Of a stretch of 56,132 bases of DNA, positions 33,513-41,228 are shown one piece after another. A program made the position numbers and the translations under genes. Origin of the DNA: Armatimonadota bacterium (lineage in GTDB: Bacteria > Armatimonadota > Hebobacteria > CAIYQO01); NCBI GenBank assembly GCA_029553475.1, contig JAKPKV010000034.1, positions 1 to 56,132 of the forward strand. The letters are read 5' to 3'. The first letter of the stretch is position 1. Every line of letters starts with the position of its first letter. The notes beneath the pieces were generated by a model. That model did not search any database and was not told where the DNA came from. It saw only the letters and a list, made by a program, of their open reading frames with translations.

Positions 33513-33921
33513 CCATACCAAAAGGGAGTCGAACTGATTCGGCTCTCTGGTCATGCGCGGAATGCCGTCGCTCGGCGCATTTTCCACGTTCAAATTGGTC
33601 TGTTTGAACACCTTCTCACCTCGAAACCTGCGGACGACCACGACAACGCCTCCGGTGCGATATAGCCCGAAAGCGGCCAATTCTTTCTCCAATTCTCTAA
33701 GAGACTGTTCGGACCGTTTCTAAAACCTTCGGACTGCTCTCTGACCTCGTCCGGAGGTTGGCTCCAGAGACCTGTGGACGATACGTCTCTCCCAGGTGAT
33801 GTCAACTAGACCTTGTAGGTATCATGTGACAATGATTTTTCTCGCGGGTTAAAGCATCCGTCCAAAAGTCGGCACCTTAAGATGAGCATGCATTTCAGTA
33901 CTGGGGAGGAGCATTGTTCGA
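33513..33921. other. Lower-GC gene-free spacer between tRNA and sigma-factor fusion gene
   Basis: Base composition falls from here on compared with the contig. The spacer holds the tRNA terminator. I see no integrase gene and no clear direct repeat of the tRNA 3' end: only an 8-base match, TGGCTCCA, at 33759-33766. Confidence 0.6.
33523..33548 (+). terminator. Hairpin after tRNA-Ala
   Basis: AGGGAGTCGAA and TTCGGCTCTCT form an 11-bp stem with two G-T pairs and a CTGA loop, 10 nt after the tRNA CCA end. Confidence 0.5.
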
Positions 33922-35586
33922 ATGGAAGATGTCCGGGAGTTCGCAAGGCGGGCCATGGCAGGAGATATGGATGCCTTTGCCAATCTGGTGACCCGATTTG
34001 AAGATATGGCTGTCGGTTATGCCTATGCCAAACTCGGTGATTACCATCTGGCTGAAGATGTGTCGCAAGAAGCGTTTATCGAAGCGTTCCGCAGCATGCA
34101 TACGTTACGTGACCCCGCGGCTTTTCCGGCATGGTTGAAGACGATCATCGGTTTCCGCTGCAACAGGATCTTGCGGAAACCGTCCCTACGAACCGATCCG
34201 CTGGATGACTCGGTGGCATTGGCCGATACAGCATCGAATCCTGAACTGCTCGTGGTACGCCGGGACGAGACGTCCCTGGTTTGGCAGGCTGTGCGGCAGT
34301 TGCCGGAGCAAGACCGGGTGATCGTCACGCTGTATTATCTGCAAGAATACACCCACCAGCAAATTGCCTCCTTTCTCGGCATTCCAGCTTCCAGGGTCAA
34401 TAACCGATTGCATGCATCACGAAAGAAACTGCAAAAGGAGCTCCTTGCGATGTTTGGTGATGAGATGGCACAGATGAAACCGTCCAGGGACGACCAATTC
34501 AGGCGTACAGTCATCGAAGGGGTCATGCCGATTAGTCATGCCCAGACCAACTATTCGATGCTGTGTCATTTCGGTGTGAGTCTACTTGCCGCAGTGAGTG
34601 TCTTGGGATGCGAGACGGATTACCCCACGATTATGGGCGCATCCGGCATGGCTTTCCGGATGGTATGGATCGCCGGGTGGCACATGGAAATCGACGATGT
34701 CTTACAGATGGCGGACGATCCATATGAACCGATACGACGAGCTTTCGGTGCGCTCGGGTATCGGTATCGTATACGTCATTGTACCGATCCAGTGGATTAC
34801 CCTCGATATTATCCGGCTACGCACCCGCTCTGGGTGACCAGGCGGGAGGCGGCACAAGAAATACGACACAGTATTGATCATGGTATCCCAGTCATCGCAT
34901 TCGGGGTCACCGGATCGTTGTTAGCCAGCCTTGTCACCGGATACGAGGACAACGGTGAAGTGCTCCTGGGTCTTAATGCGGATGACGGTGGGGAAAACAG
35001 CGACGAGGTGATGCCGTCTGGGTTCTTCAAGAAGGAGGACTGGTATCCGCATACGGCGGCCTATATCCTCATCGGTGAACAGACCGACCTCGTGCCGAGA
35101 CGCCGGCGCTATCTTGATGCTGTACGTTATGCCGTACAGCTAGCGCGCACCCCACAGATGTCGGGTATCTATCGCGGGTTAGCTGCCTATACTGCCTGGG
35201 CACGGCAGTTAACGACAGAGGATTTCGCCTCGCTACCATTACACGGTCAACCCGGCGAGGATTATTTAATGGAGCGCTTTATTGTGCATTGTAATGGCCT
35301 TTGTATGCTGAACGAACGCAGCCATGCTGCCACCTTCCTGGAGCGGATCGCGGCAGAGGAACCGGACATCGCCGAGGAATTGCACGCCGCTGCCACCTAT
35401 TATCGGAAGGCGTCCGAGTATGCTGGCGCATTATGGGCGCATGTCAGCATGGATGATGCCGGTGTTCAACGATTCGCGGCTCCCGAGATACGATCTATCT
35501 TGGCTGACCATGTCTTACACGCTCGCGACTTGGAAGAGATGGCGGTCTCTTCCATTGAATCCTTGTTGGGTCGCATTATGATATAA
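33922..35586 (+). CDS. ECF-type sigma factor fused to a large BtrH/C39-like domain
   Basis: A 554-residue protein in two parts. Residues about 10-85 are sigma region 2 (LVTRFEDMAVGYAYAKLGD, LAEDVSQEAFIEAFRSM) and about 118-180 region 4 (LPEQDRVIVTLYYLQEYTHQQIA, then SRVNNRLHASRKKLQ). After a linker, about 205-400 resembles the BtrH N-terminal/peptidase C39-like fold: Cys215 in SMLCHFGVSLLAAVSVLG, ASGMAFRMVW, SIDHGIPVIAFGVTG and LVTGYEDNGEVLLGLN with Asp343. Residues about 400-554 are helical (RYLDAVRYAVQLARTP, AATYYRKASEYAGALWAHV), as in BtrH-like/DUF4872 tails. The extension could sense or process a ligand that sets sigma activity; this is inference. ATG follows GGGGAGGAG at 10 nt. GC and codon use are clearly lower than in the neighbours, and the gene follows a tRNA, which suggests transfer. 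No anti-sigma gene is adjacent. Confidence 0.8.
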   Translation: MEDVREFARRAMAGDMDAFANLVTRFEDMAVGYAYAKLGDYHLAEDVSQEAFIEAFRSMHTLRDPAAFPAWLKTIIGFRCNRILRKPSLRTDPLDDSVALADTASNPELLVVRRDETSLVWQAVRQLPEQDRVIVTLYYLQEYTHQQIASFLGIPASRVNNRLHASRKKLQKELLAMFGDEMAQMKPSRDDQFRRTVIEGVMPISHAQTNYSMLCHFGVSLLAAVSVLGCETDYPTIMGASGMAFRMVWIAGWHMEIDDVLQMADDPYEPIRRAFGALGYRYRIRHCTDPVDYPRYYPATHPLWVTRREAAQEIRHSIDHGIPVIAFGVTGSLLASLVTGYEDNGEVLLGLNADDGGENSDEVMPSGFFKKEDWYPHTAAYILIGEQTDLVPRRRRYLDAVRYAVQLARTPQMSGIYRGLAAYTAWARQLTTEDFASLPLHGQPGEDYLMERFIVHCNGLCMLNERSHAATFLERIAAEEPDIAEELHAAATYYRKASEYAGALWAHVSMDDAGVQRFAAPEIRSILADHVLHARDLEEMAVSSIESLLGRIMI

Positions 35587-36063
35587 TGGCTGCTCAATCC
35601 AACATAACGATGACCTTGGCGTGGTCAGCTAATCTGCTGAACAGAGTGATGATACGAACGTGGGCTGTCTTGCCAAAGCATTGGCAATTATTGAATCAAT
35701 TCGACTCTCATCCGGTAGAGCACACGTCCCAATTCTCAAGGTGAGTATTCGATCCCAGGAATCCTCCTACGCTCCCCTCTCTTGGATTGTGGATCAAGAA
35801 GCGATGCGCAGTCTTTTTGGTCGGCGCTCCTCCCCGCGGTCGCGGAGCATTTTCGATTTCAGGCATGTTCCCTCCGCCGATGCCGTGACGTGCCGGGCGC
35901 GCGGCGATGCGCGCCCCGGTTTTTCTCTCCCGCCTGCCTTGCCCGCCGATTCGGCGCAGGTTTGTCCGCCGGCCGGGACGGGTAGGACACCCGTATCAGC
36001 TTTCCGCGTCCCCCCGGCAGCACCCCAACACCTTTTCGCGGCGGGCTGGTGAGGGGGTCATTG
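35587..36063. other. Gene-free spacer at the right edge of the low-GC segment
   Basis: Composition returns to high GC after about 35880. It includes the hairpin at 35670-35687 and a stretch near 35701-35765 that recalls D-arm and T-loop sequences of a tRNA but does not fold. No supported gene. Confidence 0.5.
35670..35687 (+). terminator. Possible terminator of the sigma-factor fusion gene
   Basis: TTGCCAA-AGCA-TTGGCAA, 7 bp, followed by TTATTGAATC, 84 nt past the stop codon. Confidence 0.4.
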
Positions 36064-38139: not shown

Positions 38140-41019
38140 TCAGAAGTTCCAGGACAACTGCGCGTTGAGACGCCGCGCGTTATAGTCGAGGTTCGCATTC
38201 ACGTCGTCCGCGTAGTGCAGCTGCTGGGCGTTGAGGGTGAGGGTGAGCTGGTCGGTGAGGTGATAATTCCACCCCAGCCCGATCGTCTGCTTCCGGGAGC
38301 CGCTGGGGAAGCCGGAGTTGCGCAGCGTTTCGCCGGCGACGAAGATATCGTGCTTGTCCGCCACCGGGTAGGTGACTTTCGCCGCCAGCGTGGTCAGTTT
38401 GTTGCCGGTGGTGGTGACGGCGGCGTCATCAGCGACTTGCGCCATCACCACCTGCCGCTGCGCGAGGGCTTCCGTTTGATACATCTGCGCCACGCCGAAG
38501 GAGTTTTCGCCCCAGATGCGCTGGGCATCGAGATTCACGATGGCTTTGCCCAGCTCCACCTGCGTGCTGGCGCCGAGCATGTTATTCACCGACGAGCCCA
38601 GCAAATCCGTGTAGTTCAGGTTCTGGCGGTTCCAGTACCCGTTCAGCGACACGCGCGAGGTGGGCTGCCACCAGGCGTTGGCGGCCAGCATCGTTGAGTC
38701 GCTGTTGCTGTATTCGCCCCCGCGCGCGCTGTTCGTCGTGTAGCTCAGGCCGACGGAGAGATTCGCGCGCGCCTGCCAATCCGCGCCCAGCGAGAGGTCG
38801 GTGCTGGTCTGCGCCGGCACGTCGCTGCCGGAGGCCGTGCGGGTGGCGTCGGTTTTCGTCGTCGTCAGGTTGCTGTTCAGCGTCAACCGGTCGCTGACGC
38901 GGTAATGCGCCGACACCTGGGCGTTGCGGCCGGCGCTGGTGGTCGCCACGCCGTCGGTATCCGAGTTGATCGTATTCGTCGCCAGGTTCGCGCTGACGTT
39001 CAGCCGGTCATTCGGCGCGTAATTCAGGTTCAGCGACGCGTCATGCGTGGTGGCGCGATAGTGATAAATCGGGTCCGTCGCCTGCGGCGTATCGGGCAGC
39101 GGTTGATACGGGTCCGCGGAGTAGCGGAACTGCCGGGTATCAATATTGCGCCGATTGAGATGCAGCGACGCGGTGAGCGGGCTTTTATCCCAGGTGATGG
39201 ACAGCGAGTCCGTCACCGAGGCATCGCCCAGCCCCTCGCTGCCGAGTTGGCTCGAATCGCGGGTAGTGCGGCGCAGGCTGAGCGCCGGCCAGTCCTCGCG
39301 CCGGTATTCCACGCCGTACGTCCGGTTCTTCTCCTCCATCAGAATATTATCCACCGACGAATACGGATTATACGGCAGCGTGGTGTTATCGCCGCTGGTG
39401 GAAAAGGTCAGCTCCGCGGTGGGCATGTAGCTGGCGCCCCACTCCAGCGCATCGCGCACATTGCGATACCCGGCGCGCTCGATGGGCGAGAAACCGGAAT
39501 CCACCCGGCGATAGGCGGCGTTGGCGGCGACGTGTTCGTTGCCGAAATTCGCGGTGAGCGCCAGCGCGCCGTCACCCTGCAGCGCGACGGTGCGCCCTTC
39601 GGTGGAATAGGACACAAAGAGCGTGGGGCCGAGATTGGAGATCGGGATATCCGCCCGCAGGATGCGCAGCTCGCCCGTCTGGTAATTGAGGATATATTCC
39701 GTGCCGCGCACGAGGGGCAGCGCCAGCGCGCGCACCGTATCGGTATTCGGCATCACCGGCGTTTTCCGCAGGTGGAAGACCTGCTGGGTGACGGGGATGC
39801 CCGCCTGCACGGTGAACTGCTCGTCCTTGATCTGTTCGGCCGCGATATGCTGCACGCCGCCGCCGGTGCTTTTCGCCGCCTGCAGGCCGAGCTGCAGGCC
39901 ATGCTGCGCCCAGTTCACGTCCACGCCGGTGACCGCGCGGTCGCCGCTGCTCGCCGCCGTCACCTGCGTCACCGCGTAGCGCACGATGACGGTGGAGCCC
40001 GGCGGGGGTTCGTTGCCGCCGGCAAAGAGCAGGCGGCCGGTGGTGTGGTCCAGGGTATAGGCCGCCCCGCGCGCCTGCAGCACGCCGTTGATGGTCACCG
40101 TCTCCGATTCCGGCACGATGGGACGGAAGGTGAGATAAAACGGACCCGGCGTGCCGGTGCCGAGGAACTGGTCGCGCTCATCGCGCTGCGTGCTGCCGCC
40201 GCCACTGCGTCCGTTCAACTGGATATGCGTGGCGCCCACCGACAGCGCGTCGGTGAGGGGATAAAAGCCGCGCACCGCCGTCAACCGCCCGCCGCCGCCC
40301 CCGCTGATGGACACCTCGTAGCTCACCGTCACCCGGTCCGCCGGGCTGATGATGGAAGTCGAGGTGAAATTGAGGATGCCATTCTGATAATCGAGGGTAT
40401 ATTCCCGACCGCGCTCCTTCGGCAGGTCATTCACCGTCACCACCTCGCTGTATTCCACCACGGGCGTGGCGGTGAGGTAATACGGTCCGCTCACGTTGCG
40501 GCCATAGAAGATGTCGGTCTTCACCGGCGACTTCAGATCGCTGCCGATGACGGATAATCCGCCTTTCGGCAGCACGGCGTCCACCTGCACCCCCTGCAGG
40601 TTGCGGTTGAGGGTGACGAACTCGTTGCCGCCCATCGTCGCGGTGAACTCGCCGAGCAGCGTTTTCGCGTCGGAGCCATCGTGGCGCAGGCTCCAGCGGA
40701 AGCGGTCCGGCGCGTATTCATCCGCGGTGACCGTGGCGTCCAGATAGAAATCCTTGTAAAGCTGCCCGTTCAGATACAGATTGGAGTTGTGCGTGAAGGT
40801 GCGGCTGGCGCCGTAGTTGTCATCCTGGAAGTAGCTTTGCGAGCCGGAGACGCTGCTGACGTTCAGCGAGAGGGAGTTGTTCCCGCTGACCTCCAGCTTC
40901 GGGTACCCTTTAATGGGGGTAATTGGGATCATATACGCGTAGACCGGCTCGGCGAAGGTACACCAGGGCATGAGCAGCATCACGAGCCAGGCCAGCGCGC
41001 GCTTTTGACGAAGATTCAT
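38140..41019 (-). CDS. Outer-membrane beta-barrel surface protein with SprA-like repeats
   Basis: A 959-residue exported protein. The signal peptide (LAWLVMLLMPWCTFAEPVYA) is followed by an N-terminal beta region and three related units at about 178-240, 290-352 and 412-475. Each has a V-x-V-x-x-x-x-x-x-RG-x-x-Y-x-L-x-Y-x-x-G-x-L pattern (RGREYTLDYQNGILNF, RGAAYTLDHTTGRLLF, RGTEYILNYQTGELRI). Similar units occur in SprA-like cell-surface proteins. From about 500 on, alternating amphipathic strands rich in Asn/Thr/Ser/Tyr continue to a last strand, LNAQLSWNF, whose terminal Phe is the BAM-targeting signature. The protein probably forms a large barrel in the outer membrane. ATG 41019 begins the signal peptide; AAGGA lies 14 nt upstream. 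A MITE ends 20 nt before the start codon. Confidence 0.72.
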   Translation of the reverse strand: MNLRQKRALAWLVMLLMPWCTFAEPVYAYMIPITPIKGYPKLEVSGNNSLSLNVSSVSGSQSYFQDDNYGASRTFTHNSNLYLNGQLYKDFYLDATVTADEYAPDRFRWSLRHDGSDAKTLLGEFTATMGGNEFVTLNRNLQGVQVDAVLPKGGLSVIGSDLKSPVKTDIFYGRNVSGPYYLTATPVVEYSEVVTVNDLPKERGREYTLDYQNGILNFTSTSIISPADRVTVSYEVSISGGGGGRLTAVRGFYPLTDALSVGATHIQLNGRSGGGSTQRDERDQFLGTGTPGPFYLTFRPIVPESETVTINGVLQARGAAYTLDHTTGRLLFAGGNEPPPGSTVIVRYAVTQVTAASSGDRAVTGVDVNWAQHGLQLGLQAAKSTGGGVQHIAAEQIKDEQFTVQAGIPVTQQVFHLRKTPVMPNTDTVRALALPLVRGTEYILNYQTGELRILRADIPISNLGPTLFVSYSTEGRTVALQGDGALALTANFGNEHVAANAAYRRVDSGFSPIERAGYRNVRDALEWGASYMPTAELTFSTSGDNTTLPYNPYSSVDNILMEEKNRTYGVEYRREDWPALSLRRTTRDSSQLGSEGLGDASVTDSLSITWDKSPLTASLHLNRRNIDTRQFRYSADPYQPLPDTPQATDPIYHYRATTHDASLNLNYAPNDRLNVSANLATNTINSDTDGVATTSAGRNAQVSAHYRVSDRLTLNSNLTTTKTDATRTASGSDVPAQTSTDLSLGADWQARANLSVGLSYTTNSARGGEYSNSDSTMLAANAWWQPTSRVSLNGYWNRQNLNYTDLLGSSVNNMLGASTQVELGKAIVNLDAQRIWGENSFGVAQMYQTEALAQRQVVMAQVADDAAVTTTGNKLTTLAAKVTYPVADKHDIFVAGETLRNSGFPSGSRKQTIGLGWNYHLTDQLTLTLNAQQLHYADDVNANLDYNARRLNAQLSWNF

Positions 41020-41039
41020 CGGTATGAGCAGCGTCCTTA

Positions 41040-41228
41040 GAAACTGTCTTGCAAGTGCTCGCCGCCGTCTCGCGGGTCTGTGACGTGGCTGGCGGCGTTG
41101 GAGTTCCTGGCATGGAGGTCTCCGCCCCATCATCCTGATGGCTCCCCCCGATACCCTCTCGGAACTCCGCCTTACCAGCCACGCCCCATCCTCCGCGATA
41201 CGACAACGATCACTTCCAAGACAGTTTC
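41040..41228. mobile_element. 189-bp MITE with IS5-like terminal inverted repeats
   Basis: The left end GAAACTGTCTTGCAAGTGC and the inverse of the right end, GAAACTGTCTTGGAAGTGA, agree at 20 of the first 22 bases. TTA flanks both sides (41037-41039 and 41229-41231) as a probable 3-bp target duplication, fitting the TNA type seen in parts of the IS5 family. No transposase is encoded, so it would have been moved in trans. It lies just upstream of the beta-barrel gene. Confidence 0.85.

Follow-up and report, generated by a model that had tools for sequence, protein, structure and literature searches.

What is a 362-residue domain doing at the C-terminus of an otherwise complete ECF sigma factor? 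A sigma factor tells RNA polymerase which genes to read, and built-in regulators of sigma factors are understood for only a few types of extension. The gene examined here lies in the window, by which we mean the whole analysed stretch of 56,132 nucleotides from a genome of the poorly known phylum Armatimonadota. A sequence-only reading had described it as a pair of sigma-70 regions 2 and 4 followed by a BtrH/C39-like fold with a helical tail, and had suggested that this domain acts as a sensor or as a self-processing switch. The open reading frame proved to be real at the coordinates given by that reading: it opens with an ATG that has GGGGAGGAG a short way upstream, and its stop codon ends at 35586. 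Residues 1-182 form a complete ECF sigma factor (sigma2 and sigma4), followed on the same polypeptide by the 362-residue module. Both sigma regions score above the Pfam cut-offs, in agreement with the initial description, and TIGR02937 matches the sigma half with an E-value of 8.7e-25. The protein has no large sigma1.1 or sigma3 region, as expected of an ECF factor, and its structured domain follows sigma4 in a single chain, an architecture kept in ten other genes.

Coordinates in the window of the fusion gene, its parts and the adjoining segment.
Feature	Position	Strand	Basis
tRNA-Ala (CGC), left of low-GC segment	33439..33512	+	ARAGORN
Low-GC segment holding the gene, GC about 0.46-0.61 in 150-base steps	33513..35900		composition
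ECF sigma factor with BtrH-type pseudo-acyltransferase module (best description), 554 aa	33922..35586	+	ORF, Pfam, AlphaFold, fold search
Sigma-70 region 2, aa 22-86	33985..34179	+	Sigma70_r2 PF04542, E 2.7e-12
Sigma-70 region 4, aa 120-170	34279..34431	+	Sigma70_r4_2 PF08281, E 1e-14
Linker, aa 171-198, with PSRDDQF motif shared by related ECFs bearing other C-terminal domains	34432..34515	+	sequence comparison
C39/papain-like half of module, aa 199-389	34516..35088	+	VIA against C39 and papain-like folds, Z 9-12
Cys215 codon; Cys in 30/85 relatives and 7/10 sigma-fused copies	34564..34566	+	alignment of 85 domain copies
Leu334 codon, at C39 catalytic His position (lost)	34921..34923	+	hhalign to C39 peptidases and column count
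Asn352 codon, at C39 catalytic Asp position	34975..34977	+	hhalign to C39 peptidases and column count
All-helical half of module, aa 390-554	35089..35583	+	AlphaFold pLDDT mostly >90; inside full-length AziU3/CcbD/CtaG matches

The sequence-only reading had proposed a search of the C-terminal part against profiles. No Pfam or NCBIfam model matched the module, a profile search of PDB sequences returned only chance coiled-coil and designed-helix matches, and neither the plasmid collection nor a single-sequence scan of the genome contigs gave any match. When the contigs were scanned with a close alignment of five module sequences, 18 loci in several phyla were recovered; relatives were gathered from whole genomes and from named genome contigs. 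By hhalign, the resulting family profile aligned with genuine BtrH_N proteins, a target set most members of which score well above the PF14399 cut-off, with a probability of 97% and an E-value of 9.5e-11 over 256 columns. The PF14399 cut-off itself (29.7 bits) was not reached: the window protein was unmatched and two relatives scored 13.7-13.9 bits.

The module was then modelled with AlphaFold2 as residues 193-554 alone, from an alignment of 28 sequences (pLDDT 90.4, pTM 0.91). In a full-length model the sigma half, with pLDDT below 50 at residues 54-116, was too ill resolved to reveal contacts between the two halves. Foldseek matched the module model to AziU3 (E 3.5e-7), and structural comparison by VIA gave Z 19.6 for AziU3 (298 residues aligned, rmsd 5.2), 17.9 for CcbD and 17.2 for CtaG. 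In the PDB comparison only these three proteins cover the module end to end; the next matches (Z 11.8 and lower) comprise essentially the C39/papain half alone or the helical half alone. By way of background, and from the titles of their PDB entries, we take AziU3 to belong to the azinomycin pathway, CcbD to be the celesticetin condensing enzyme and CtaG to belong to the closthioamide pathway. Because of the full-length structure matches and the BtrH_N profile alignment, the modelled module is assigned the whole BtrH-type acyltransferase fold, a C39-like half plus a helical half, as had been anticipated. It shares whole fold and profile homology with the BtrH_N acyltransferases (PF14399) and with CcbD, CtaG and AziU3, but it lacks their catalytic histidine, falls below the Pfam cut-off and sits on a sigma factor instead of in a biosynthetic cluster.

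The catalytic residues were compared over 85 copies of the module. To place the His and Asp positions, the profile was aligned with intact C39-type peptidases from the same phylum; this match is weak (probability 40%, E 0.00029), with the GY motif as its anchor. At the His column, histidine occurs in 2 copies, Glu in 42, Asp in 20 (62 acidic residues together) and Asn in 11; within the C39-like half, histidine is not conserved above 20% at any column. Ser and Asn are the commonest residues at the Asp column, and Cys215 sits one residue ahead of the C39 nucleophile in the profile alignment. Thus the window protein has neither the Peptidase C39/C39_2 triad (Cys, His, Asp/Asn), whose His is lost, nor the BtrH-type Cys-His-Asp/Glu set, with Leu334 at the His column. 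Cys215, singled out by the sequence-only reading, does exist, but Asp343, its candidate third residue, lies in the GYED turn and not at the triad Asp position, which is Asn352. The best-conserved residues of the module are the structural G242, A244, F245, G279, P323, G340 and G419, together with R466 (80/85 copies) and R524 (69/85). For comparison, CcbD uses a Cys-His-Glu triad in catalysis (PMC12945683), and the titles of CtaG PDB entries report mutations at C11, H128 and D144. With the catalytic His lost, the module probably no longer catalyses and, judging from these alignments, is best described as a pseudo-enzyme. In principle, the acidic residue conserved at the His position might serve a different chemistry.

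Sigma-BtrH fusions were found in at least eleven genes, the window gene and ten others, in nine of 291 genomes and five Armatimonadota families, a lower bound given that five candidates were scored per genome. One of the eleven (G003) is interrupted by a contig end, and named bearers include Candidatus Hebobacterum abditum (L083) and another Hebobacteria genome (L084). The sequence-only reading had asked which other proteins carry the fusion and had named its absence from all relatives as a ground for refutation; the ten further genes, in eight other genomes, dispose of that ground. A single clade of sigma-fused modules was rejected in the module tree (p 7.8e-56), a single origin of the fusion was also rejected in the sigma tree (p 2.2e-12), and parsimony required four to five changes. 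These trees force at least two independent sigma fusions and make three or four likely. The window module has no close sister, its closest copy being only 37% identical, and its grouping with the Hebobacteria fusions was neither shown nor rejected (p 0.46 and 0.25). Immediately before the start of three related fusions (G010, G007, G003), a block of about 45 bases is nearly identical; it was not seen in the window. A block of this length (GCAAACCTCTCGGCGCGAAGGTGGGGCAGTGTAG...), nearly identical in three species, precedes the sigma-fusion gene at about 5315-5360 of L083 and at the corresponding position in L084 and L085; it is possibly a self-recognised promoter or a leader element.

The sigma halves belong to a sublineage with other extensions as well. 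Their relatives bear ankyrin, HEAT, TPR, Pol-beta-type nucleotidyltransferase or phenylalanyl-tRNA-synthetase core domains. In a sigma tree of 32 rows, 26 extended ECFs stood apart from plain ones (support 80/83), with the BtrH-fused ECFs interleaved among the other extended ones. The C-terminal extensions of this sublineage look exchangeable. Individual members include an ECF with a HEAT extension in the window's own genome (L002/L039 10924-12969), ankyrin-type repeats in L064, L067 and L075 (the latter two judged by eye), a nucleotidyltransferase in L068 and TPR in L078. The phenylalanyl-tRNA synthetase core is carried by ECFs at L059 850-2097 (-), where PF01409 matches with E 5.8e-24, and at L060 509-1768 (+); these are unusual candidates for amino-acid- or tRNA-sensing sigma factors.

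The module also keeps other company. In the window's own genome it is joined to an AraC-type helix-turn-helix domain (L039 6557-7990), and separate AraC-type fusions occur in Clostridia (L097 and L099, the helix-turn-helix of L099 being assigned by similarity to L097); a single origin of the AraC fusions was rejected (p 2e-58). In L021 a GyrI/Cass2 small-molecule-binding domain comes after the module. Standalone, double and triple copies abound in Armatimonadota, and records from Chloroflexi, Planctomycetes and Lentisphaerae contain them too. Of the nine fusion loci inspected, four have a further module copy adjoining the sigma gene. At G010:C87 and G012 this copy starts with a Tat-type signal (RRSFLQ) and shares 8 bases with the sigma gene; at G045:C19 two copies follow the sigma gene, the first with a Sec-type signal; and at G045:C13 a copy lies within 4 kb. 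Signal peptides were called by eye, and export of these copies is a prediction. Such copies, with a Tat-type signal and an 8-base overlap with the upstream sigma-fusion gene, lie at L109 6868-8019 and L107 4601-5713. Six loci (L118, L120, L121, L123, L124 and L125) encode TPR-like proteins, apparently exported or lipoproteins, that end in a degenerate module copy. An N-terminal segment of about 80 residues (LKRQAKSLLKSH ... ALDYGFSSWNAMKHH) recurs in L105 9635-10966, L105 8271-9530 and L098 554-1915, and precedes the module in L098 and in L105 9635-10966. Downstream of the window gene there is no sister module. The suggestion of a one-gene system fits the window locus, but four of the nine fusion loci have the adjoining copies just described, some with export signals.

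The base composition of the window gene is foreign to its contig, as had been proposed. Its GC content is 0.545 and its GC3 0.593, against GC3 values of 0.85-0.92 in the neighbouring genes, and the low-GC segment that holds it is the contig's most extreme outlier in tetranucleotide usage. GC3 is nearly equal in the two gene halves (0.599 and 0.590); therefore the halves have probably travelled together. The tRNA-Ala named in the sequence-only reading does adjoin the segment. A tRNA-linked island was nevertheless discarded: the 3' end of the tRNA has no second copy, hence no att duplication, within the window, and no convincing repeats flank the low-GC segment, so tRNA-linked acquisition is not demonstrated. 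In the search for an orthologous empty site in the same genus, the flanking gene turned up at no more than 37% identity. To the left of the fusion gene lies an NfnAB-like pair (PF14691/PF07992 and PF10418) and to the right a 668-residue protein without Pfam matches; no anti-sigma gene was recognisable among these neighbours, as previously noted. Elsewhere in the window (38140-41133, minus strand), a 997-residue protein weakly matches an outer-membrane beta-barrel and contains repeated strand motifs.

Two unrelated classes of DNA-binding regulator have been attached to the module recurrently, its catalysis has probably been lost and it is associated with GyrI/Cass2. For these reasons the sensor role, already put forward from the sequence, appears the likeliest reading of the module: the pseudo-acyltransferase extension would be a built-in small-molecule sensor that switches the sigma factor in place of an anti-sigma factor, a proposal whose chances we put at about even. 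The module would keep the substrate cleft as a putative small-molecule binding site; when unbound, it would lock sigma2 and sigma4 in an arrangement unable to engage RNA polymerase, and ligand binding would release them (or the reverse), standing in for an anti-sigma factor. We propose this cleft-and-release switch on the model of ECF41 and ECF56. Their SnoaL extensions, kin to antibiotic-biosynthesis enzymes, are believed to work through a conformational change acting on the sigma2-sigma4 arrangement (PMC8999054, PMC7730460). Ligand binding, the identity of any ligand, whether it activates or represses, and contacts within the protein are our inference. Against this proposal, the window copy is a divergent one, sharing at most 37% identity with any other, lacks a sister module downstream and might be drifting.

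The main rival is a protein-interaction switch, in which the module would answer a partner such as an acyl or aminoacyl carrier protein, or a nearby sister module; we consider it possible, if rather doubtful. CcbD, which has the same fold, docks a carrier protein via arginines (PMC12945683), and Arg466 and Arg524 are among the most conserved residues of the module. Sister modules beside the sigma gene, with two 8-base overlaps, point in the same direction, as do the ECF42 and ECF57 extensions, which are thought to act via partners. However, some sister modules carry Sec or Tat signals and would not meet a cytoplasmic sigma factor, no partner gene exists at the window locus, and the AraC and GyrI/Cass2 companions indicate small molecules.

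It is unlikely that the sigma factor is controlled at its own transcription alone, with the extension as a structural or degenerate passenger. Some ECFs are indeed under transcriptional control only (PMC8999054), and the divergence and foreign composition of the window copy would suit a passenger, but the module is full-length, retains its conserved glycines and core motifs, and the recurrence of independent fusions would be left unexplained. About as unlikely is an active cysteine enzyme, a self-processing peptidase or an acyltransferase, whose chemistry would switch the sigma factor. The BtrH-type fold, Cys215 and the cysteine at the same column in most sigma-fused copies speak for such an enzyme; yet the catalytic His is absent from the window gene and from 83 of the 85 copies, the Asp position is mostly Ser or Asn, Cys215 is displaced by one residue from the C39 nucleophile, and CcbD uses a Cys-His-Glu triad. 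The self-processing peptidase was rejected on the missing His, and an active acyltransferase is not supported, for the same reason. Finally, the chance of an assembly chimera is practically negligible: the draft genome has 194 contigs and an estimated contamination of 4%, but the same architecture recurs in genes of eight other genomes, one base composition runs across both halves, and the independence of the fusions refutes a chimera as the source of the architecture.

Comparison with known systems places the sensor reading of the window protein among sigma factors with regulatory extensions; according to an ECF review, at least 26 groups have extensions. Like ECF41 and ECF56 (SigJ, Ecf41Bli, SigG1; SnoaL_2), the window protein continues from its ECF core into a domain akin to an enzyme of antibiotic biosynthesis, but its extension has an unrelated BtrH-type fold, is about three times larger and has no SnoaL match in Pfam; SigG1, moreover, has a separate anti-sigma factor, RsfG, whereas none was seen at the window locus. 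ECF42 (TPR) and ECF57 (WD40) likewise have long regulatory C-terminal extensions, but these are protein-interaction repeats instead of an enzyme fold, and Pfam gave no significant TPR match in the window extension. Nor was there a Pfam match to a zinc-finger anti-sigma domain (ZAS), as in fusions of the ECF48/52/53 type; the AlphaFold model of the extension is a BtrH fold of soluble type. AraC one-component regulators with a GyrI-like effector similarly join a DNA-binding module directly to an effector domain, whose place the BtrH-like module takes on the AraC proteins of L039, L097 and L099; the window protein differs from AraC/GyrI regulators in its output, a sigma factor, and in its BtrH-like effector domain. 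The literature searched contained neither a link between BtrH and sigma factors nor a BtrH-type ECF extension; a group of the latest full ECF classification may include an unannotated member. Sigma factors with a regulatory extension are already known, and the BtrH-type extension appears undescribed in the literature searched.

If the sensor reading is true, a pseudo-enzyme from antibiotic biosynthesis would have been co-opted as a sensor for sigma factors on several independent occasions. The window gene would then encode a self-contained inducible sigma factor, whose ligand could be sought among natural-product intermediates. A wider picture can be offered tentatively, although we would sooner expect it to fail than to hold. 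The dead acyltransferase fold may be a general ligand-sensing module on ECF and AraC regulators, at times with an exported copy encoded beside the cytoplasmic sensor; a single fold would then read one and the same compound, or carrier-bound intermediate, on either side of the cell boundary; in Armatimonadota it would be seated on an ECF sublineage with a swappable C-terminal domain. The Armatimonadota ECFs with exchangeable C-terminal domains form a natural series for learning how attached domains switch sigma factors.
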